64,000 nucleotides of DNA from NCBI GenBank assembly GCA_025349905.2, contig MU624541.1, positions 52,227-116,226 on the forward strand, written 5' to 3'. Source of the DNA: Blastocladiella britannica (Eukaryota > Blastocladiomycota > Blastocladiomycetes > Blastocladiales > Blastocladiaceae). The notes below the pieces were generated by a model. That model was not told where the DNA came from, ran no database searches, and worked only from the letters and a program-made list of their open reading frames with translations. The position numbers and the translations under genes are program-made. Of the stretch, positions 34,575 through 53,300 are shown in pieces. Numbering within the stretch: position 1 is the first letter of the stretch; each line of letters opens with the position of its first letter.

Positions 34575-35752
<1,178 letters not shown>

Positions 35753-38700
35753 TTACACGTGGTCGTCGACGGCAGTCACAGCCGCAGGGGTGGCCGAGCG
35801 TCGCGGAAGACTCAGCGACATGCCGCCGCCATGCAACGACAGTCCGTCGAGATCGCCGCTCTTGTCGTGCCCCGCCGACGCCGGTGCTGGTACAGCTGGT
35901 GGTGGTGACGCGTCGCCGCCAACGGGCACGGAATGCGATCGCTTTGCCTTGAACTTTGGCGGCAACGGCGGCGGCAATAATGGAGGGCCCGTGGCAGTCA
36001 CTGGGGACGTCAATGCCGACGACGACTGCGACTTCGACTGTGGCGACGACGTAGGCAGGATCAGCTCTGCTTCTTCCGCTTGGTGGGGGGCAGCAGCCGG
36101 GTAATCATTGTCACCCAAAGACAAAAGCGCAAGCGCATGGTCAATCCCCACCACCTCACTCGTGGCATCGCCCTGGTCGCCATGCATCGGGAAAATGCTG
36201 GTCGTAAACGAGGCTGGCCGGCCAATCGTCATGATGGCCTTGGACGAGGGCGTCGCGTCGCCACCGTGCGGCACCGGAATGGTGATGGTCGGCAGCCTAC
36301 TGTCGACCTCTTGCTCCTCCTCTGCCATGGGCGAGAGTGGCGCGGGTCCCGACGTGACGCGCGGGTTGGACGGGAGCATACCCGGCGGAATATCCAATGC
36401 TGCCGACAGAGCCAACGGTATGAGCGCGGGCAGTCCGTCCATAGGCGAAGAAAGGGCCGTGGGCGAGGCGGAAGACGTGGTGGCGGCAGCACTCGAGTTG
36501 GTGCCGAAACCGACGGGCACCGTGACTGTGGGCTCGGGTGCTGTCGTGGTGGTCGAAGACCCGTCCAGTCCCTGCACAGGAATGGCGCCAACGGTCCGTG
36601 GCAGCGAAAAGACGCCGCCCTCGCGAGCGCGCTGGTCGCGCGTGGACTTGATCTTGTCCTGGAGCGCCAGCAGGAACCCCTGCCGGCCTTTCTCGTCCGA
36701 CAGCGAGAGCACATACGACAGCGGCAGCTGCTGCTCTTTACTCGCCGCATCGCCCAGGCCGCCGCCGCCGCCACCACCGCCCATCCCGGAGCCAAGGGCC
36801 ACGCCGGCAGAGCGCAGGCCGCTAAATGCGTTGACAGCAGATTTGACGGCAGCAGAAGGACCGTGGCCGGCCTTGGCATTGAGCGTGGTGGAGCTCGTCG
36901 AAAGAGACCCGGCGCGAATGTCCAGCACCACCATCCCGGATCCGCCCTCGGACGCCGTCAGATCAGCCAAGTCGAGGAGCCGGATGAACTTGACTTTACC
37001 CTTTTTGTGCACGCGCGCCAGGAGCAACAGATCGCTCATGAGGTACAACCGGAGCGGGTGGTGCTTGGACGACGCCGCCACAAGCGACAGGAGCGACCCG
37101 GCGACGCCCGACGCCGACGCGGCAGCCGCGCCCATGCCCGTCACCTCGCCCGCGTCCACCTCCAAAATCAGGCGACGCGAGTACTTGATCACGATCGGCG
37201 GGCACCCTTCCACCTGCTTGAACATGGTGAACATGCGCGTCATCTCCTCCTCCTGCTGCTTGACGTGATTGACCTGCGCGGCCATCTCGTTCATGATCCC
37301 CAGCGCCGACGTGAGGTGCTCATAGTCTGGGTGGTCGGTTGGTGTGTGCTTGCGAACGTCCTTGAGCAGCAGCGGGTATCGGGTGGCGCGCTGGATCGGC
37401 AAAATCAAGAAATCCTGCAGCTGCTGCCGGTTCGTGTCGCGCGAGTGCTTGCACTTTTCGTTGAACTGCTTGAACCCGGCGTTGGATTCCTCGGCACGGC
37501 GGACCATCGCCAGCGCGTTCGAGTAGTTGTCGACAAACCGCAGAAACACCGAAAAGCCCTCGCCCTGGGCCAAAAACAGCGGCGCCATAATCGACTGCTC
37601 GTCGTCCCACGAATCCATGACCACCGCGAGCTCTTTGGCGAACTGGGTCGAAAATTCGAGCAGCGCCTCGACGCCCGTAAATACGAGCCGGATAAACACC
37701 TTGGGCACCAGCTTTTGCTCCTCGAGCGGCTGCTTGAATTGCGTGAGGAGGATCTTGAGCGACTCGCGGTACGACACTTCCGTCTCGTACATCTCGTGCG
37801 CGACATAGGATCGCAACTCGAGCTGCTTGAGGCGCTTTTCGAGAGAGAGGGTGGCCGAGTCACTCGCTCCGCCCGAAGCTGCCGACGCCGCGGTGGGGCC
37901 CATCGAGTCTGGAGCGCCAAACTCGCCGCCGCCGCCATTCGCAGAGACAAGTGTCGCATCGCCAGTGCTTGCAAACGAGTCGTCCAGGTCAGTCGTCAGG
38001 AAACTGGCATTGCCCGAGTCGGCAACAACCATTGTGGCGTCGCCATCGCCGCTGCCGCCATTTCCACCAGGAAGCGCCGAATCCGCGGACGAGTAGCGGT
38101 GCAAGTTGGGCGACGAGGCCGACCCACCAGAAGTGCCCGATGGTGGGTATCCCGAGTCCACGCTCATGCGAGGATCCACGTTGCTGTCGCCACCGTCCAC
38201 AAACAAGCCCGGGTCGGATGCGGGTCGCGGGAGAATAGACACGTCGCCAGGAGGTCGGCGCATGGATCCGTAGCGCGCCTGCTGCTGCTGCTGTTGTACA
38301 TCCTGCTGCGACATGCGTGCGGGTTGCTGGCCTGGCTGGTATTGCAGTGCCGGCGACGGACCGTAGCTCGTAGGGCCACCGCCCGGAATCGGGCCGGGCA
38401 TAGCGCCGCCGTTCGGGAACTGCTGTTGTTGCTGTTGCATTCCAGCTGCCATCGTCAGCCCGCCGTGTGACTGCGGGCGGCGGAGCGATGCGGTGCGGCC
38501 GCCAACCATGACTTGCTGATGCATTTGCTGCTGGGCCGGGTGCGGCATGCGATGTGCCAGTGACGAGGCGCGGGACGCGTACGCAGCTGCCGCGGCGGCC
38601 GCTGCTGCAGGGTCCTGCATGGGCGGCCCGGGGGATGCGCGCAACGGCGGCGATTGCATGGCAACGGAGGGATGCATTCCGCTTGGGACCAGCATACTCC

Positions 38701-40990
38701 CCCGCTGTGGGCCCTGCGGCTGCATGCCGTAGGGCACGCCGCCCTGGCCCTGGGGTGGCTGTCCGTACATGCCCGGGTGCCGCTGGTACGCCATTTGCTG
38801 AGCCGCAGCATGGTGGTAAGGCGAGACGGGCGCGTAGCCGCCTGGTCGCATCTGTGGCGACATTGGGTAGCCCTGGTGTGGTGGGGTGCCATGGGGCGTT
38901 GGTGGAGGCGGGCCAGTGTACCGATAAGCCACCGACGACTGGCGACCGAGGGATACTTGTGAGGGGATGTAGGGCTGTCCAGGAGCGATCGCAATTCGGC
39001 CGCCAAGTTGTTGTTGTGGATGTTGTTGCTGTTGTGGGTGATGTTGCGGCTGGCCAGGACGCATCATTCCAGAGGGGCGCATCTGGAACTGTGGACCAGG
39101 GCCGCCACTCGAGTACATGACACTGCTGCGACCGCCGCCCGACGGCGAACCTGGTCGCTGACCTATCGGTGAGCCTCCAGTACCCACGTACATGCCCGGC
39201 CGAGGCGGTTGCTGCTGGTGTTGTTGCTGCTGCAAATGAAGCTGATGCTGTTGCTGCTGGGGAGAAAGGCCAGATACCCGCATGGCAGCCATGGATGCGC
39301 GGCGTTGCATTTCGCTGGGCGAGAGTGCAGACGGCGGTGGCCCACCCCGGACAGAGTACTGGCGCTGGATGGCGGCAGCATTGGCCTGTGCCAGCACATG
39401 TTGTTGTTTTGCGCGAGCCGCGCGCTGCTGGCCCAGGAGTGTTGCAGTCGACGTGAGGTGCCGCAGAGACCGCGGTCGGAACACGGCGTCCTCGGGATCG
39501 GTGGGCTCGAGCGCCGAGTACACGGGCTGGTCGGGATCATCGTCGCCGTCGCCAACGCTGACGAGGTAGTACACTTTTGGGTGTTCAAAGAGAGCGCATG
39601 CGAGCAAGAAGCGGTTGGAGAGCAAAAAGAGCTGCTCTGTTTGCGGGACAGAGTCAAAGAACTTGATGGAGAGCACGTCGTCGCGAAACTCAATCAGGTA
39701 GATATCACCGAAAATGGACTGTGCGAGGACGGCGCACCCGGTTCCGCTGGGCGGCAGACCACGCACGGCCGTGTGGGACACTAAGTACAGCTCGGCGCCA
39801 AGTGTCAGCGAAGGGTGACGGGGAATGGGTACGCTCTGTGCTGCACGTCGCTCGTGGTACCAAACGACCATGTTGCGCGAGCACACGAGGACGCCGCCAG
39901 GACCGGCCGCGACAGAGGAGGAGGAGGAGGAAGCGGCGGCCGGGGCGGTGCCTGCGGGTGAGGCGCCATTATTTGCGCCGCCATTGGCGGTTGCGGCGGC
40001 GCTGACGGTGGGTTCTGCGATCGGCGAGGGCACGGGGATCACCATATTGGCGGACGAATCGACACGCACATCCCAGCGGCGAAAGACCTGGTTTTGCTCC
40101 AGGTCGAGCTCGTAAAAGACCAGCATCTTGTCCGCGGACGCAATGATATCGTCGCGGTAGGCCGACGCTGCGGCTGCCGAGGAGAGCGCTGCTGACATGG
40201 CGGACTTGTCGGACGCGCGGTGGGCTTCCAAGCAGGCGAAAATCGGGTTTCGCCATGGCGATTCCACCGACACGACGGCAAAAAGGGGAGACGACGGGAT
40301 GGCGTCCACTGTTCAATTTGGTGGTGAGTACAAATGGAGACCTGCAATAGCAAAAGTGAAGGAGGGAAGTACCGGTTGGGAGCGCGACCGAGAGCTTGGT
40401 CTCTGCTGGATCAATGAGGATATGCACGATCTTGCACTCTTCCACGTTGCCTGGTTAATGTGCGTGCGTTGCATGCGTAACTGGATGTCAAATACAATAT
40501 CCCAGGTGTATGAAAATAAGTAAAGAAGAGAGCGCGCACCAATCAGCACGCACCGGGACTTCCAGTCGGCGGTCATGTTGCGGCCCCAGCTAAGCCACGG
40601 GTGATGGGTTCCCTGATATTGCTCCTGGTCCACCAGCTCAAACGTGACGTTTTTGGGGTTGTACTCGAGGATCAGAATCGCACCGCCGTCCAGCGCGGCC
40701 AGAATGTAGTCCTTGGAGGCGGCCGAGGTCGCGTTCAGGCGCAGGCGCTCGAGGCCGCGGACCTCGGCGCCAAGGTTGCACTCGGCGATTTTGATGAGCG
40801 TGAACGATGCCGGGTCGATTTGGTACAGCTGAATGTGGCTGGCGCCGTTGGTGGTCAGGAGCAGCGCGCCCCACTCCATGCCGGCAAAGTAGCCTGTGAC
40901 GGCGCGTCGCTGGACGACCGGTGGCGGTGAGTCGGCGGCGACAGAGGCCATGGCCATCATGGCGGCGGCGGCCGAGGAACCGTAGCTCAT
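35753..40990 (-). CDS. SF3B3/RSE1-like propeller fused to a DH-PH RhoGEF
   Basis: Three exons (40990-40541, boundary base 40540 included, then 40450-40373 and 40308-35753) give 1694 residues. Residues 1-330 match the first part of SF3B3/RSE1: GAILILEYNPKNVTFE, ESPWRNPIFACLE, VFYELDLEQNQVFRRW, CAVLAQSIFGDIYLIEF, then FEHPKVYYLVSVGDGD and FRPRSLRHL. A Gln/Pro/Gly-rich linker of several hundred residues follows. Next comes a Dbl-homology domain at about 1000-1220 (SYVAHEMYETEVSYRESLKI, then LQDFLILPIQRATRYPLLLK) and a PH-like domain (RLYLMSDLLLLARV). The C-terminus is disordered. DH-PH proteins activate Rho GTPases; the propeller normally sits in the SF3b splicing complex. The link lies inside one open exon of 4.5 kb with no stop, so it is not a splicing artefact of my model. 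Confidence 0.85.
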
Positions 40991-41591
40991 GTATGTTTTT
41001 GAAAGGCGTTGTTGTTATCGCGCCGCCTCCAGTATTCTTGTTGTTGTTGGGTCGCTGCAAATGATGCTATGATATTACTGCAAGAGCTGTTTGCAGCAGG
41101 CGAACCGATTCGGGGTATGCTTCGTTGGTTTCGGGCGGCCGCTGTGTGAGCCTCACTCTTTTTGGACTTGCCTGTCTTGCTGGGCAGTTGAGCAGGAATT
41201 AAACACTTGCCTCGCGTGGGGAGAGAGTTTTTTTTTTCCACATCAATGACTTGATATGCTCTTTTGCATTGCCCGTCCTTGACGCCGGCACCATGGGCGA
41301 TACCGGGAACGGGGCGCGTCAGTGCTGCTGGAGGCGCGAAACACCCAGGTACGGTTGGCTCGGATCTCGTCTCTGCTCTTTTTTTAAAGGTCTGCAGCGG
41401 AGCGGGTCCATTATTGGCACCGCCGTCATTTGAATACAAAAAAAATCCAAGTCCGGTCAACTCTCTCTCTATGTTTACCCAAAAAAGAAAAGAAAAAAAT
41501 GTAGCGCCATTACAACAACAAGGTCCTCGTTCCCGCCGTACCTGAAAAACTTCCGTCCACGATTAAAGTCCCCAAGGTCACGTTTCCTCTT
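40991..41591. other. 601-bp spacer without a supported gene
   Basis: This is the upstream region of the SF3B3-RhoGEF gene and the 5' flank of tRNA-Leu. A minus frame at 40987-41460 has non-coding composition. There are T-rich tracts (about 41228-41238) and A-rich tracts near 41484-41500, a CAG-GTACGG string at about 41346-41354 that looks like an isolated donor site, and a TC run at 41462-41470. I see no conserved RNA fold or protein. Confidence 0.4.
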
Positions 41592-41675
41592 GGTACGATG
41601 GCCGAGTCGGTTAAGGCGAAGGTCTTAAGAACCTTTGGGTGCAAGCCCGCGTGGGTTCGAACCCCACTCGTACTA
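41592..41675 (+). tRNA. tRNA-Leu(UAA)
   Basis: The cloverleaf folds completely. The acceptor stem is GGTACGA/TCGTACT, T8 G9 follow, the D arm contains GCCGAGTCGGTTAAGGC, and the anticodon stem AAGGT/ACCTT carries loop CT-TAA-GA (anticodon UAA). The extra arm is long (TGGGTGCAAGCCCG), as required for a type II leucine tRNA. The T arm is GTGGG/CCCAC with loop TTCGAAC and the discriminator is A. No intron is present. A T-run downstream (about 41696-41706) is a pol III terminator. Confidence 0.94.
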
Positions 41676-41736
41676 TACTCAACGAGAACATGAGTTTTTT
41701 TTTTTTGCTCTTTCAACATTTTAACCAAACAAAAAA

Positions 41737-42788
41737 ATGGTGGTTGTCAACGGATTCAGCGTCTGTATCGAGGTCGACGGCGCGCCCGCTCGCGAATACA
41801 ATGTCCGCACCATCGAAAACCAGTGGACCAACGTGCTCGAGACCACCTGCGAAATTGCCTCCAAGTCGGACGCGCCCTTTTTGGCCAAGGTCAGCTTGAC
41901 GCCCGAGGCCAAGGAGGAGGCTGGCCGTATGCACTACCAGCAACAACCACCGTGCTATTTGGCCCAGCTCTTTGTCGACGGCCGCTCCATCCTCATCAGC
42001 GGCTCCCCGCTCTCGGAACGCCCGTCCTCGTTTGATTTTGCCGTCGACAACGGGATGAAGCGGTCACTCAAATTCTCGGCCATGCGTCCAGCCATTCTTC
42101 TCGAGGGCGGTGCAGCACATGGGCCCGGTCTCGATGACAAGCTTGTGGTGGAGGGCGAGGGCGCGGCTGAAGTTGGCACCATCAAAGTCCGCATTTCGAC
42201 CGGCCAGATCATCCATCGCGCCCATCCAGTGGCCTCCACGTCGCAGGCCAAGCAGGTCATTCTCAAGAAAAAGACGGTCAGCGACACGCGCATCACGCAT
42301 TCGACCGGGTAAGCTCCTCTTATTTTCATTGTTTTTTCGCTTGCGCATACTGATCTCGCTCAAAACGCGTCCGTCTCCAAAGCTATGGCGACGCGACTGG
42401 TGCCTACCACTCTGGCTCCACGCAGAGCTTGGCCGAAGTCACGGTGCATGATTTCATTTTCAAGTACTCGGATCTTGGTACTTGTTTTCCCTCATCCATT
42501 ACATGGTGCGCGGTCACTTATGCATGTATCCCGACAATAACAGGTCTCATGATCAGCCGGGGCATCATTGCCGATCCCAACAGTAACGCAGCGCCTTTGC
42601 GTCCCATCAAGCGCGACCGCAGTGAAATGACCGCACCTCTGGAGGCTCCTGCGCGCAAGCGGTCGCGCTCGGGCCCGGTGACGCTAAATGGAGACGACGA
42701 CGAGGACGACGACGACCATGACCGCTCGCACAGTAAAACTCCTCCGGGTAGGATTGTTATTACGCTCGATAGCGACGAAGGCGATTGA
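41737..42788 (+). CDS. DUF7918-like fungal protein
   Basis: Three exons (41737-42308, 42383-42477, 42544-42788) give 303 residues in consistent phase; donors are GTAAGC (the only GTAAG donor I used) and GTACTT. The N-terminal ~190 residues are a beta-rich domain. It opens with VVVNGFSVCIEVDGAPAREY and contains CYLAQLFVDGRSI and FDFAVDNGMKRSLKFSAM. That arrangement (a G-F-x-V-x-I-x-V-D-G start followed by an EY pair and a later F-x-F strand) resembles DUF7918, a fungal family of unknown role; the match is by eye only. The C-terminus is basic then very acidic (DDDEDDDDHD) and ends near IVITLDSDEGD, which resembles a SUMO-interacting motif. It starts 61 bp after tRNA-Leu. Confidence 0.62.
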
Positions 42789-50322: not shown

Positions 50323-53300
50323 CTAGTCCAACAAACTTCCACCAGGCGGGTGCGGCGGAGCGGCTGCTGCTGCGTACTGCTGCTGCTGCGGTGGCTGCTG
50401 AGAATACTGGCCTTGGTACGGCGGGTACCCGGGCTGAGCGTACGGGCCCGACGGCGGCGGTGGGGCTGCAACATAGCCTGGCGGCGGGGGAGCAGCCGCC
50501 GAGGGTGCACTTCCGCCGGTCGAGGCGGGATATTGGTACGGCTGCTGTGCCTGGTAATGCTGCGGTTGTTGCGGTTGCTGAGGCTGTTGAGGTTGCTGCT
50601 GGCCATAGTAGCCCGTGCCAGGATACGCGGGTTGCTGGTGGTGCTGGTGCTGCTGGGACTGAGGCTGAGGGGGTGCAGCAGCGGCCGCGCTCGGATATCC
50701 GGAATAGCTGCTACCCGTGGCGGCGGGTGACTGGTACTGGTAGTGGCCGTACGCTGGGGAAGAGGTCGAAGGAGTGCTGTACGCGGGCGGGGCCTGCGGT
50801 ACGCCGTACGGGTGGCTGGGTGCCGGAGGGGTAGCGGCGGCGGACGACCCCAGGGTCGGGTAAGGGTTTGGAGCATACGCGGATTGGGGAGCGTACGGGT
50901 TCGGAGCCGCGGCGGCAGATGCACCTGAAGACATGCTTGGGTACGGGCTGGGAGCCGAGGGGGCCGCAGACGACAAGGACGACGAAGTCGGCGTCGAGTA
51001 CGCGGTGGGCGACCCGTGGGCAATGTCCATGCGTGCAATCTGCGAGCGCAAAAAATCGGTCGATGAAGCAGCGCGCGCAGCCTCGGCCGCCTTGGCCGCC
51101 GCATCAGCGTCCGCGGCGCGTTGACGCGTGATCGCAAGCGCCGCGCGCGCCGCACCCGTGCACGCGTCCTGGGCATCCGTCGCGAGCTCGATCGCCGCCA
51201 CCAGCTTCTTTCGGCACGCCTGCCACGCCGCATACGCGGCCCGCACGTCCTTGGCGGCCGTGTCTTGACGCTGCTCGGCGGTGGCCGCGTCGCGTGCAAG
51301 TGGATGGACCGAAATCTCGCGCTGCCAACGCTTCGTCAAGCTCGCGGTGGCATCGCGCGTGGCGGCGGCATTGGCAGCGAGCTTCTCCGAAAACGGGCGG
51401 AACTTTTGCAGCTCGGTGCGGAAAATGTGCTCGTCCACGTTCTGCTTGGCGTTGAGCACCAGCAGCTCAGAGATGTCGTCCTTGTGCACCGCGGCCTTGA
51501 GGTCGCTCACAATTACCGCACGTTCCCGCTTCAGGTCCGACAGCCGCCCAACCGTGTCGCGAGCGGCCTTGACCGCAGCCGTGAACTCGGTGATACCGGT
51601 CTTTTCGTCATTTTCAAGGTCCAACAACGAGCCGCCGCCAGGGCCGCCCGGTGTGCCAGCAGATGGAACCCCACGGACCAGTGCCACGGCCGGGTGTTCA
51701 GCGAGTCGTTCGGCCGCACTCGCGACGGCCGCATCGGCAACCGAACGCACACGGACGGCCTCACGCGCGACCGCCACATCGCGGCGTTGGGGGAGGCTAG
51801 CGGATGGCGCTAGCGTCCACGCGGCGGCGCCGTGCGTGGCCTTGAACTGGTCCTCGCGCTGCTGGTCCTTATCAAGTGCCTCCTTAGCCGCCGTCAGCTG
51901 CGCGGTGCCTTCACGCAAGATATCGGCCGCTTGCTGCGCCAGTTCGCGCGACTCGCTTCCACCACCAATCTCGGCCGCCATGGCCTGCACCTCTGGTGGC
52001 CAGTCATACGAGCTACCGCCACCACTACCCCCAGGACCCGACCCGGGTTTGGCGGCGCTGGCCGCGGCGGCCGTGAGCTTCTCGAGCGCGGCCGGGAACC
52101 CGATTGACGCGAGTGCTGACGCCACCTCAGCATCGAGCACGCTCGCGGCTTCGGAAGCGGTCCGCAGTACCTGTGCCTTGTGCTCCGAGTACACGGACGC
52201 CTTTTCATGCACGTCGAGCGGAATCAGGCCCGAGAAGATATCAGCGCCGACCAGCGCATTGAACTCGTCGGCGCCGCCGGGCAGGACCTTGTCAAACCCG
52301 AGGTACGCGGGCACCACAATGTGGTCGAGCGGCGGCAGCGCGTCGCGGGGCGGGACCGTCGCGTGGTAGATCACATCATTGTCCTTGGTCGCGCGCGCGG
52401 CCAGATCGGCGGTTAACGTGACCGCGAGCTTGCACGCGTCCTGTAGGCCGGCCATGGCGTCTGGAGCCACCAGTCCACCGGCAACCATGGCCATGTACAG
52501 TTCGCGCGGCAAGTTGCGGGTAGCCGCCAACCGCTCGGCTTCCTTTGCGTCGGCGGCGGCCGCAGACCACCGCGCCACCACTTCGCCGTACGCGCCCTCG
52601 GCCTCGGCCAAGGTGGCGCGGTACGCGTTGGCATGCGCCGAGTACAGCTTGGCCTTGGCGGCCACGAACGACGACACGCCGTGGGCAGCGGTGCTGACAA
52701 AGTACGCGGCCACATTGGTTCCGGGAGCACACTGGGTCGCGACCTGCGCGTACATGTGCGCGAGCCCCGCCGCGATCTTGGTGGTCATTTTGCTGATTTT
52801 GCGGGTGTCGGCCACGGTCTTTTCCAGCATCACCTCTTGCGCCTGCGCCAGCATCAGATCGCCCAAAAACTTGACCGTCTCGCGGCCCAGATCCTTGGAC
52901 GGCGCGTGCAAGAAATTGTCGTTGATGTACTTGAAGAGGCCCGCCGCGCACTGCAGGTTGTGGTACGCTCGCTTGAGATCGCGGGGGCCACTCAATGAAG
53001 CACCGCCAGCTGGTGCGGCCGTGGGCGAGGTGGGGCTCTCAGGGGACGACGACGAGTCAGGCACTGCGGCCATGCGCGACAGTACCGCGGCCAGGTTAAA
53101 GATGGTGGCGGCCTTTTCGAACGCGAGCGAGGACTGGGCGGTGACGTCGGCGCGCTCAAAGGCGTCGCGCCATTCAAAGACCACCTCGACGGTGCCGTCG
53201 TCGATCGGAAAGTGCAGGTCCAGGAGGTCAAGCTGGCCATAGTACTTGAGCAGCACGTCGCGGGCGGTGGCGTCGGCGCCGGCCGAGCCCGCACCGCGCA

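Follow-up and report, generated by a model that had tools for sequence, protein, structure and literature searches.

A probable hybrid gene joining an SF3B3-type propeller to a RhoGEF domain in Blastocladiella britannica

Introduction

Propellers of the SF3B3/DDB1/CPSF1 family are parts of three-propeller scaffolds that serve in splicing, ubiquitylation and 3'-end processing. A stretch of 64,000 nucleotides of contig MU624541.1 from Blastocladiella britannica (positions 52,227 to 116,226 of the forward strand, hereafter the window) holds a locus in which such a propeller seems to continue into a Dbl-family Rho guanine nucleotide exchange factor (RhoGEF). A first-pass annotation, made from the sequence of the window, had described it as an SF3B3/RSE1-like propeller joined to a Dbl homology (DH) and a PH domain in one open frame. 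The locus raises the question of whether this is one gene, two adjoining genes or a product of assembly, and of what such a protein would do. As far as the sequence of one genome goes, the domain combination is credible, and it is unusual.

Results and discussion

One open frame from propeller to DH domain

The locus was modelled as a minus-strand gene of 1694 amino acids in three exons, with the splice model, including both introns, set from reading frame and homology. It starts at the first ATG, at 40990, which is preceded by an in-frame stop, and ends with a TAA at 35753, in agreement with the coordinates of the first-pass annotation. It contains no N bases. The exon-3 frame, previously noted as an exon of about 4.5 kb without a stop, is 1519 codons long, has zero stops and holds most of the propeller, the linker and the DH domain. 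The motifs NPIFACLE, VFYELDLEQNQ and FRPRSLRHL, on which the propeller had originally been recognised, are located at residues 197, 240 and 453.

Pfam matches place both an SF3B3-type propeller and a Dbl domain in this frame, as had been proposed. The model Beta-prop_RSE1_1st (cut-off 26.9 bits) matches the exon-1 frame with 36.1 bits (profile positions 3-122) and exon 3 with 59.0 bits (positions 171-333 of 351), while RhoGEF (PF00621, cut-off 27.6 bits) matches with 150.2 bits over its whole profile (1-180 of 180). The suggested SF3B3 likeness of the first two short exons also held, for exon 1 by the Pfam match and for exon 2, with its 26 residues, by alignment. Judged from these matches, one frame runs without a break from a segment related to the 5' portion of SF3B3 genes, through a low-complexity linker, into a DH domain.

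The propeller is of the SF3B3 type

The propeller spans residues ~25-462. Compared with PDB sequences it gave 11 distinct matches up to E 10, and 10 of the 11 are SF3B3/RSE1. The best of them (1.2e-35) is annotated as a 'putative pre-mRNA splicing protein' and titled Chaetomium SF3B130 in the structure search; an RSE1 entry matched with E 3.5e-4, and the 11th match is ImpA-related (E 0.017). A DDB1 or CPSF1 origin was considered and rejected, neither being present among these matches up to E 10. The earlier wording, a splicing-type or DDB1-type propeller, can therefore be narrowed: by sequence the propeller is SF3B3/RSE1-like and not DDB1-like.

A Foldseek search with a model of the exon-3 propeller (mean predicted local distance difference test, pLDDT, 53.7; built on a two-sequence alignment that included the genome's own SF3B3) also ranked DDB1 entries below SF3B3 entries. 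Among the 50 matches listed, the first 24 are SF3b, U2 snRNP, spliceosome or SAGA entries, and the titles of matches 25 to 50 mostly name DDB1, apart from one CPSF160 entry and two that name DCAF2 alone.

The match to SF3B3 ends at FRPRSLRHL, near the boundary between BPA and BPB, and covers only the first of the three propellers of SF3B3. In human SF3B3, BPB is described as starting at residue 472 (PMC12998509). The second propeller (PF23726) and CPSF_A (PF03178) gave no match up to E 1 in the two frames of the hybrid, and PF03178 gave none anywhere on C2, the contig that contains the window.

Descent from an SF3B3 gene

The first-pass annotation had proposed looking for a separate, complete SF3B3 in the same genome. 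Such a gene was found on contig C236, with a model of 1316 amino acids that has both PF23726 and PF03178. Intron 1 lies after residue 150 in the hybrid and after residue 143 in this SF3B3, where it was likewise placed from frame and homology; the two positions fall on an aligned codon and both introns are in phase 1. Because position and phase agree, the propeller can be traced to an SF3B3 gene. On this comparison the homology between the front part of the hybrid and an SF3B3 gene extends to gene structure, and the propeller of the hybrid, by alignment, is cut from such a gene near the BPA/BPB boundary. The common intron may already have been present in ancestral SF3B3.

Over aligned columns, the hybrid is 30.6% identical to the genome's own SF3B3, 30.0% to the human and 30.2% to the Chaetomium protein, whereas the own and human SF3B3 are 50.1% identical to each other. 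Because all three identities are near 30%, the alignments make the propeller a duplicate that is either old or fast-evolving; a recent duplication was considered and is unsupported by identities so alike. Among the 146 positions invariant in the three SF3B3 proteins, 77 are retained by the hybrid (hydrophobic 31/56, Gly/Pro 18/28, charged 25/47, polar 3/15), which gives a hint only, drawn from three sequences, that the fold was conserved more than the surface. The SSPLEAHK stretch of SF3B3 is mostly replaced.

DH domain and PH-like region

Glu1020 and Lys1159 lie inside the DH domain and Asn1190 just after it, and all three are present in the aligned intersectin row. The catalytic role of these residues is known from Tiam1. 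Among PDB sequences the DH part matches ECT2 best, with intersectin nearly tied, and the ECT2 match continues beyond the DH domain via a common GCP segment. ECT2 has BRCT repeats at its N-terminus and no propeller.

The earlier claim of a Dbl domain followed by a PH domain is borne out for the DH domain. A PH domain after it is likely. A low-confidence AlphaFold2 model of the DH-PH part (mean pLDDT 59.3, alignment of 4 sequences) shows strands after the DH domain and a terminal helix, and its alignment with DH-PH structures extends mostly to model residue ~311. No Pfam PH model matches the hybrid up to E 0.1, which counts against that part of the claim.

One gene, two genes or a misassembly

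The base composition of the linker resembles that of the flanking coding sequence. The GC content is 0.63 and 0.67 in two parts of the linker and 0.63 in both the exon-3 propeller and DH-PH. It is lower in the two introns, at 0.44 each, and in the upstream and downstream gaps, at 0.50 and 0.38; furthermore, AT runs within positions 38701-39500 are all shorter than 7. A 1201-nucleotide linker query found a single place in the genome, itself, in a search that skips simple repeats. Because the linker is exon-like in GC and this piece has only one genomic place, a gene boundary or a misjoin within it is unlikely.

Two adjoining genes would require a truncated, perhaps decaying, SF3B3 duplicate and a RhoGEF beginning at an internal ATG of the Gln-rich stretch, with a frame that stayed open between them by accident. 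The 29 in-frame Met codons between residues 470 and 1030 would offer such a start. The composition of the linker does not favour this, and after the propeller, which shares its frame with the DH domain, the first stop is only at 35753. In 5000 first-order Markov simulations, a 507-codon frame of linker composition was open in 0.1%, with a mean of 7.3 stops. The simulation probably understates how often such a frame opens by chance, because the other two same-strand frames of the real linker hold only 5 and 1 stops.

Several observations weigh against the single-gene reading, and the first two lend the two-gene explanation some support. Across most of the linker an alternative frame of the minus strand also stays open, for 515 codons, because of which openness alone is indecisive. 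The synonymous-codon score of residues 477-676 is -0.23/-0.24 in the true frame vs -0.18/-0.19 in the next, below the lowest (-0.16) of 15 windows in a control gene that has low-complexity stretches; in that lowest window, too, the next frame outscored the true one. The window over the Ala/Ser-rich insertion of the propeller scores -0.12, and one antisense frame there scores -0.06. Both structure models are of low confidence, with few sequences behind them, and the hybrid gene is known from DNA of one genome. Taken with the composition, the common frame and the simulations, we nevertheless regard two adjoining genes as unlikely.

A misassembly that fused two genes through low-complexity CAG/CAA repeats would be conceivable in a draft genome of 624 contigs, and the linker does carry Gln codon repeats (45 CAG and 24 CAA). 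This explanation is very unlikely in view of the single genomic place of the 1201-nucleotide piece, the lack of N bases, and the finding that no 24-mer of the linker recurs in the linker or in the other loci compared, from which six loci overlapping the gene were left out. A single gene is thus strongly favoured.

Proposed function

If the locus is a single gene, it probably encodes a Dbl-family RhoGEF that has accreted an SF3B3-type propeller as a docking or regulatory module. The DH domain, with the probable PH domain, is predicted to exchange GDP for GTP on a Rho-family GTPase, and the PH domain could assist contact with the membrane. The propeller would have left the service of SF3b and, flexibly tethered, would act in docking or autoinhibition. 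The propellers of TEM4 and Rom2-type exchange factors suggest by analogy that it might place or gate the exchange activity.

A link to splicing would be expected if the propeller still bound SF3B5, the C-terminal HEAT repeats of SF3B1 or SAGA, and thereby carried an activator of Rho to the machinery of splicing or chromatin. In SF3B3, BPA and BPC are described as clamping SF3B5 together with the C-terminal HEAT repeats of SF3B1 (PMC7452928), and about half of the SF3B3 invariants are kept, as given above. However, the clamp requires BPC as well and the match of the hybrid stops with BPA, the polar invariants and the SSPLEAHK stretch are mostly lost, and identity is equally low to all three SF3B3 proteins. 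Retained partner binding is accordingly rated as quite unlikely. The wider proposal, in which BPA was recruited as a targeting or sensor module that keeps a partner from SF3b or SAGA and makes Rho activation follow the state of splicing or chromatin in a perhaps lineage-conserved architecture, is equally doubtful; a splicing link is disfavoured because BPC is absent and polar invariants are lost.

Should a RhoGEF with an SF3B3-type propeller be borne out, a signalling enzyme would be using BPA by itself, which would make BPA a portable unit. It would help to separate the surfaces of SF3B3 needed for SF3b from those needed for the fold alone, and RhoGEF regulation would gain another propeller family. 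The weight of the claim hinges on its occurrence in a second species.

Comparison with known systems

Compared with BPA of SF3B3/Rse1 (SF3b130), the hybrid is alike in sequence family, in its start at the N-terminus, in position and phase of intron 1 and in where the match ends. It differs in being continuous with an exchange factor, in its low identity and loss of polar invariants, and in that BPB and CPSF_A were not found.

Propellers joined to DH-PH are known from other families. Alsin (ALS2) carries an RCC1-like propeller N-terminal to its DH-PH, of another propeller family and with further domains. The CNH domain is a beta-propeller as well, and fungal exchange factors of DEP-DH-PH-CNH design, which we take to be of the Rom1/2 type, combine it with DH-PH; unlike the hybrid, they have DEP before DH, and their CNH is C-terminal and of another family. 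The contig of the window itself carries a gene of this Rom2-type design (C2:15000-24000). TEM4 (ARHGEF17) is described as one long protein that combines DH-PH, with an insert interrupting the PH, and a predicted seven-bladed propeller (PMC3404065). The TEM4 propeller is WD40-related and C-terminal, whereas that of the hybrid is SF3B3-type and N-terminal.

The first-pass annotation had known of no described protein with this order. Searches of titles and the starts of abstracts, with most subscription papers outside their reach, found no description of SF3B3, RSE1, MMS1 or CPSF_A combined with RhoGEF or Dbl, and a literature search on RhoGEF in Blastocladiomycota yielded none of the combination. 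The claim goes too far for a propeller with DH-PH as such, which TEM4 and the DEP-DH-PH-CNH proteins already have; the new part is the SF3B3-type propeller.

Within the genome, PF00621 has at least 12 matches, on contigs C218, C2, C284, C572, C61, C53, C30 and C122, and the first propeller (PF10433) at least 5, on C236, C2 and C454. A second copy of the architecture was sought and rejected: matches to both occur on C2 alone, within the window, with counts that are lower bounds in a draft genome. The exon-3 protein found no relative among bacterial/archaeal and viral contigs, a result without bearing on eukaryotes.

Contig C454 carries a divergent gene of the RSE1/DDB1/CPSF1 family with a weak first propeller (25.9 bits) and a second propeller of 44.5 bits. 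Among other RhoGEF genes, the one on C572 is of the CDC24 type, like DEP-DH-PH-CNH a familiar design; a 1494-codon frame in it holds the end of DH and PH_10 and has a very long tail rich in Gln, Pro and Ser. On C284 (2029-6544, minus) a leucine-rich-repeat protein seemingly runs into a RhoGEF, an uncommon design. One exon frame there matches LRR_8 with 35.6 bits, and the frame after it matches the start of RhoGEF below threshold, with 16.5 bits; the downstream RhoGEF match at C284:1643-2113 has 129.9 bits.

Features of the locus and neighbouring genes

The features of the gene are listed in Table 1. The linker is probably disordered, judging from its composition. The Ala/Ser-rich insertion lies in the exon-3 part of the propeller, at about residues 272-311, and the C-terminal tail has a proline-rich stretch, PLLPPPLPPKFKAKR, at residue 1619.

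Table 1. Features of the hybrid gene, with positions in the window
Feature	Position	Strand	Basis
Exon 1: N-terminus and first propeller part, residues 1-150	40540..40990	-	Pfam, splice model
Intron 1: 89 nt, GT-AG, phase 1	40451..40539	-	Splice model, comparison with own SF3B3
Exon 2: propeller, about residues 151-176	40373..40450	-	Splice model, SF3B3 alignment
Intron 2: 64 nt, GT-AG; no counterpart in own SF3B3	40309..40372	-	
Exon 3: remaining propeller, linker, DH, PH-like region, tail, TAA	35753..40308	-	
Exon-3 propeller part up to FRPRSLRHL, about residues 177-462	39449..40308	-	
Gln/Pro/Gly/Ser-rich linker, ~520 residues, with short pre-DH helix segment at its end	37805..39448	-	
Dbl homology (RhoGEF, PF00621) domain, residues 1011-1189	37268..37804	-	Pfam
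PH-like region with Gly-rich insertion	36599..37267	-	Low-confidence model, Pfam silent
Low-complexity C-terminal tail	35756..36598	-	

Upstream of the hybrid gene, the window holds a tRNA-Leu (TAA) at 41591-41676 on the plus strand and a plus-strand gene at 41725-42312 whose DUF7918 match, at 26 bits, stays below the cut-off of 27. An Abhydrolase_2 (phospholipase/carboxylesterase-like) gene at 35111-35752 on the minus strand adjoins the hybrid gene directly downstream.
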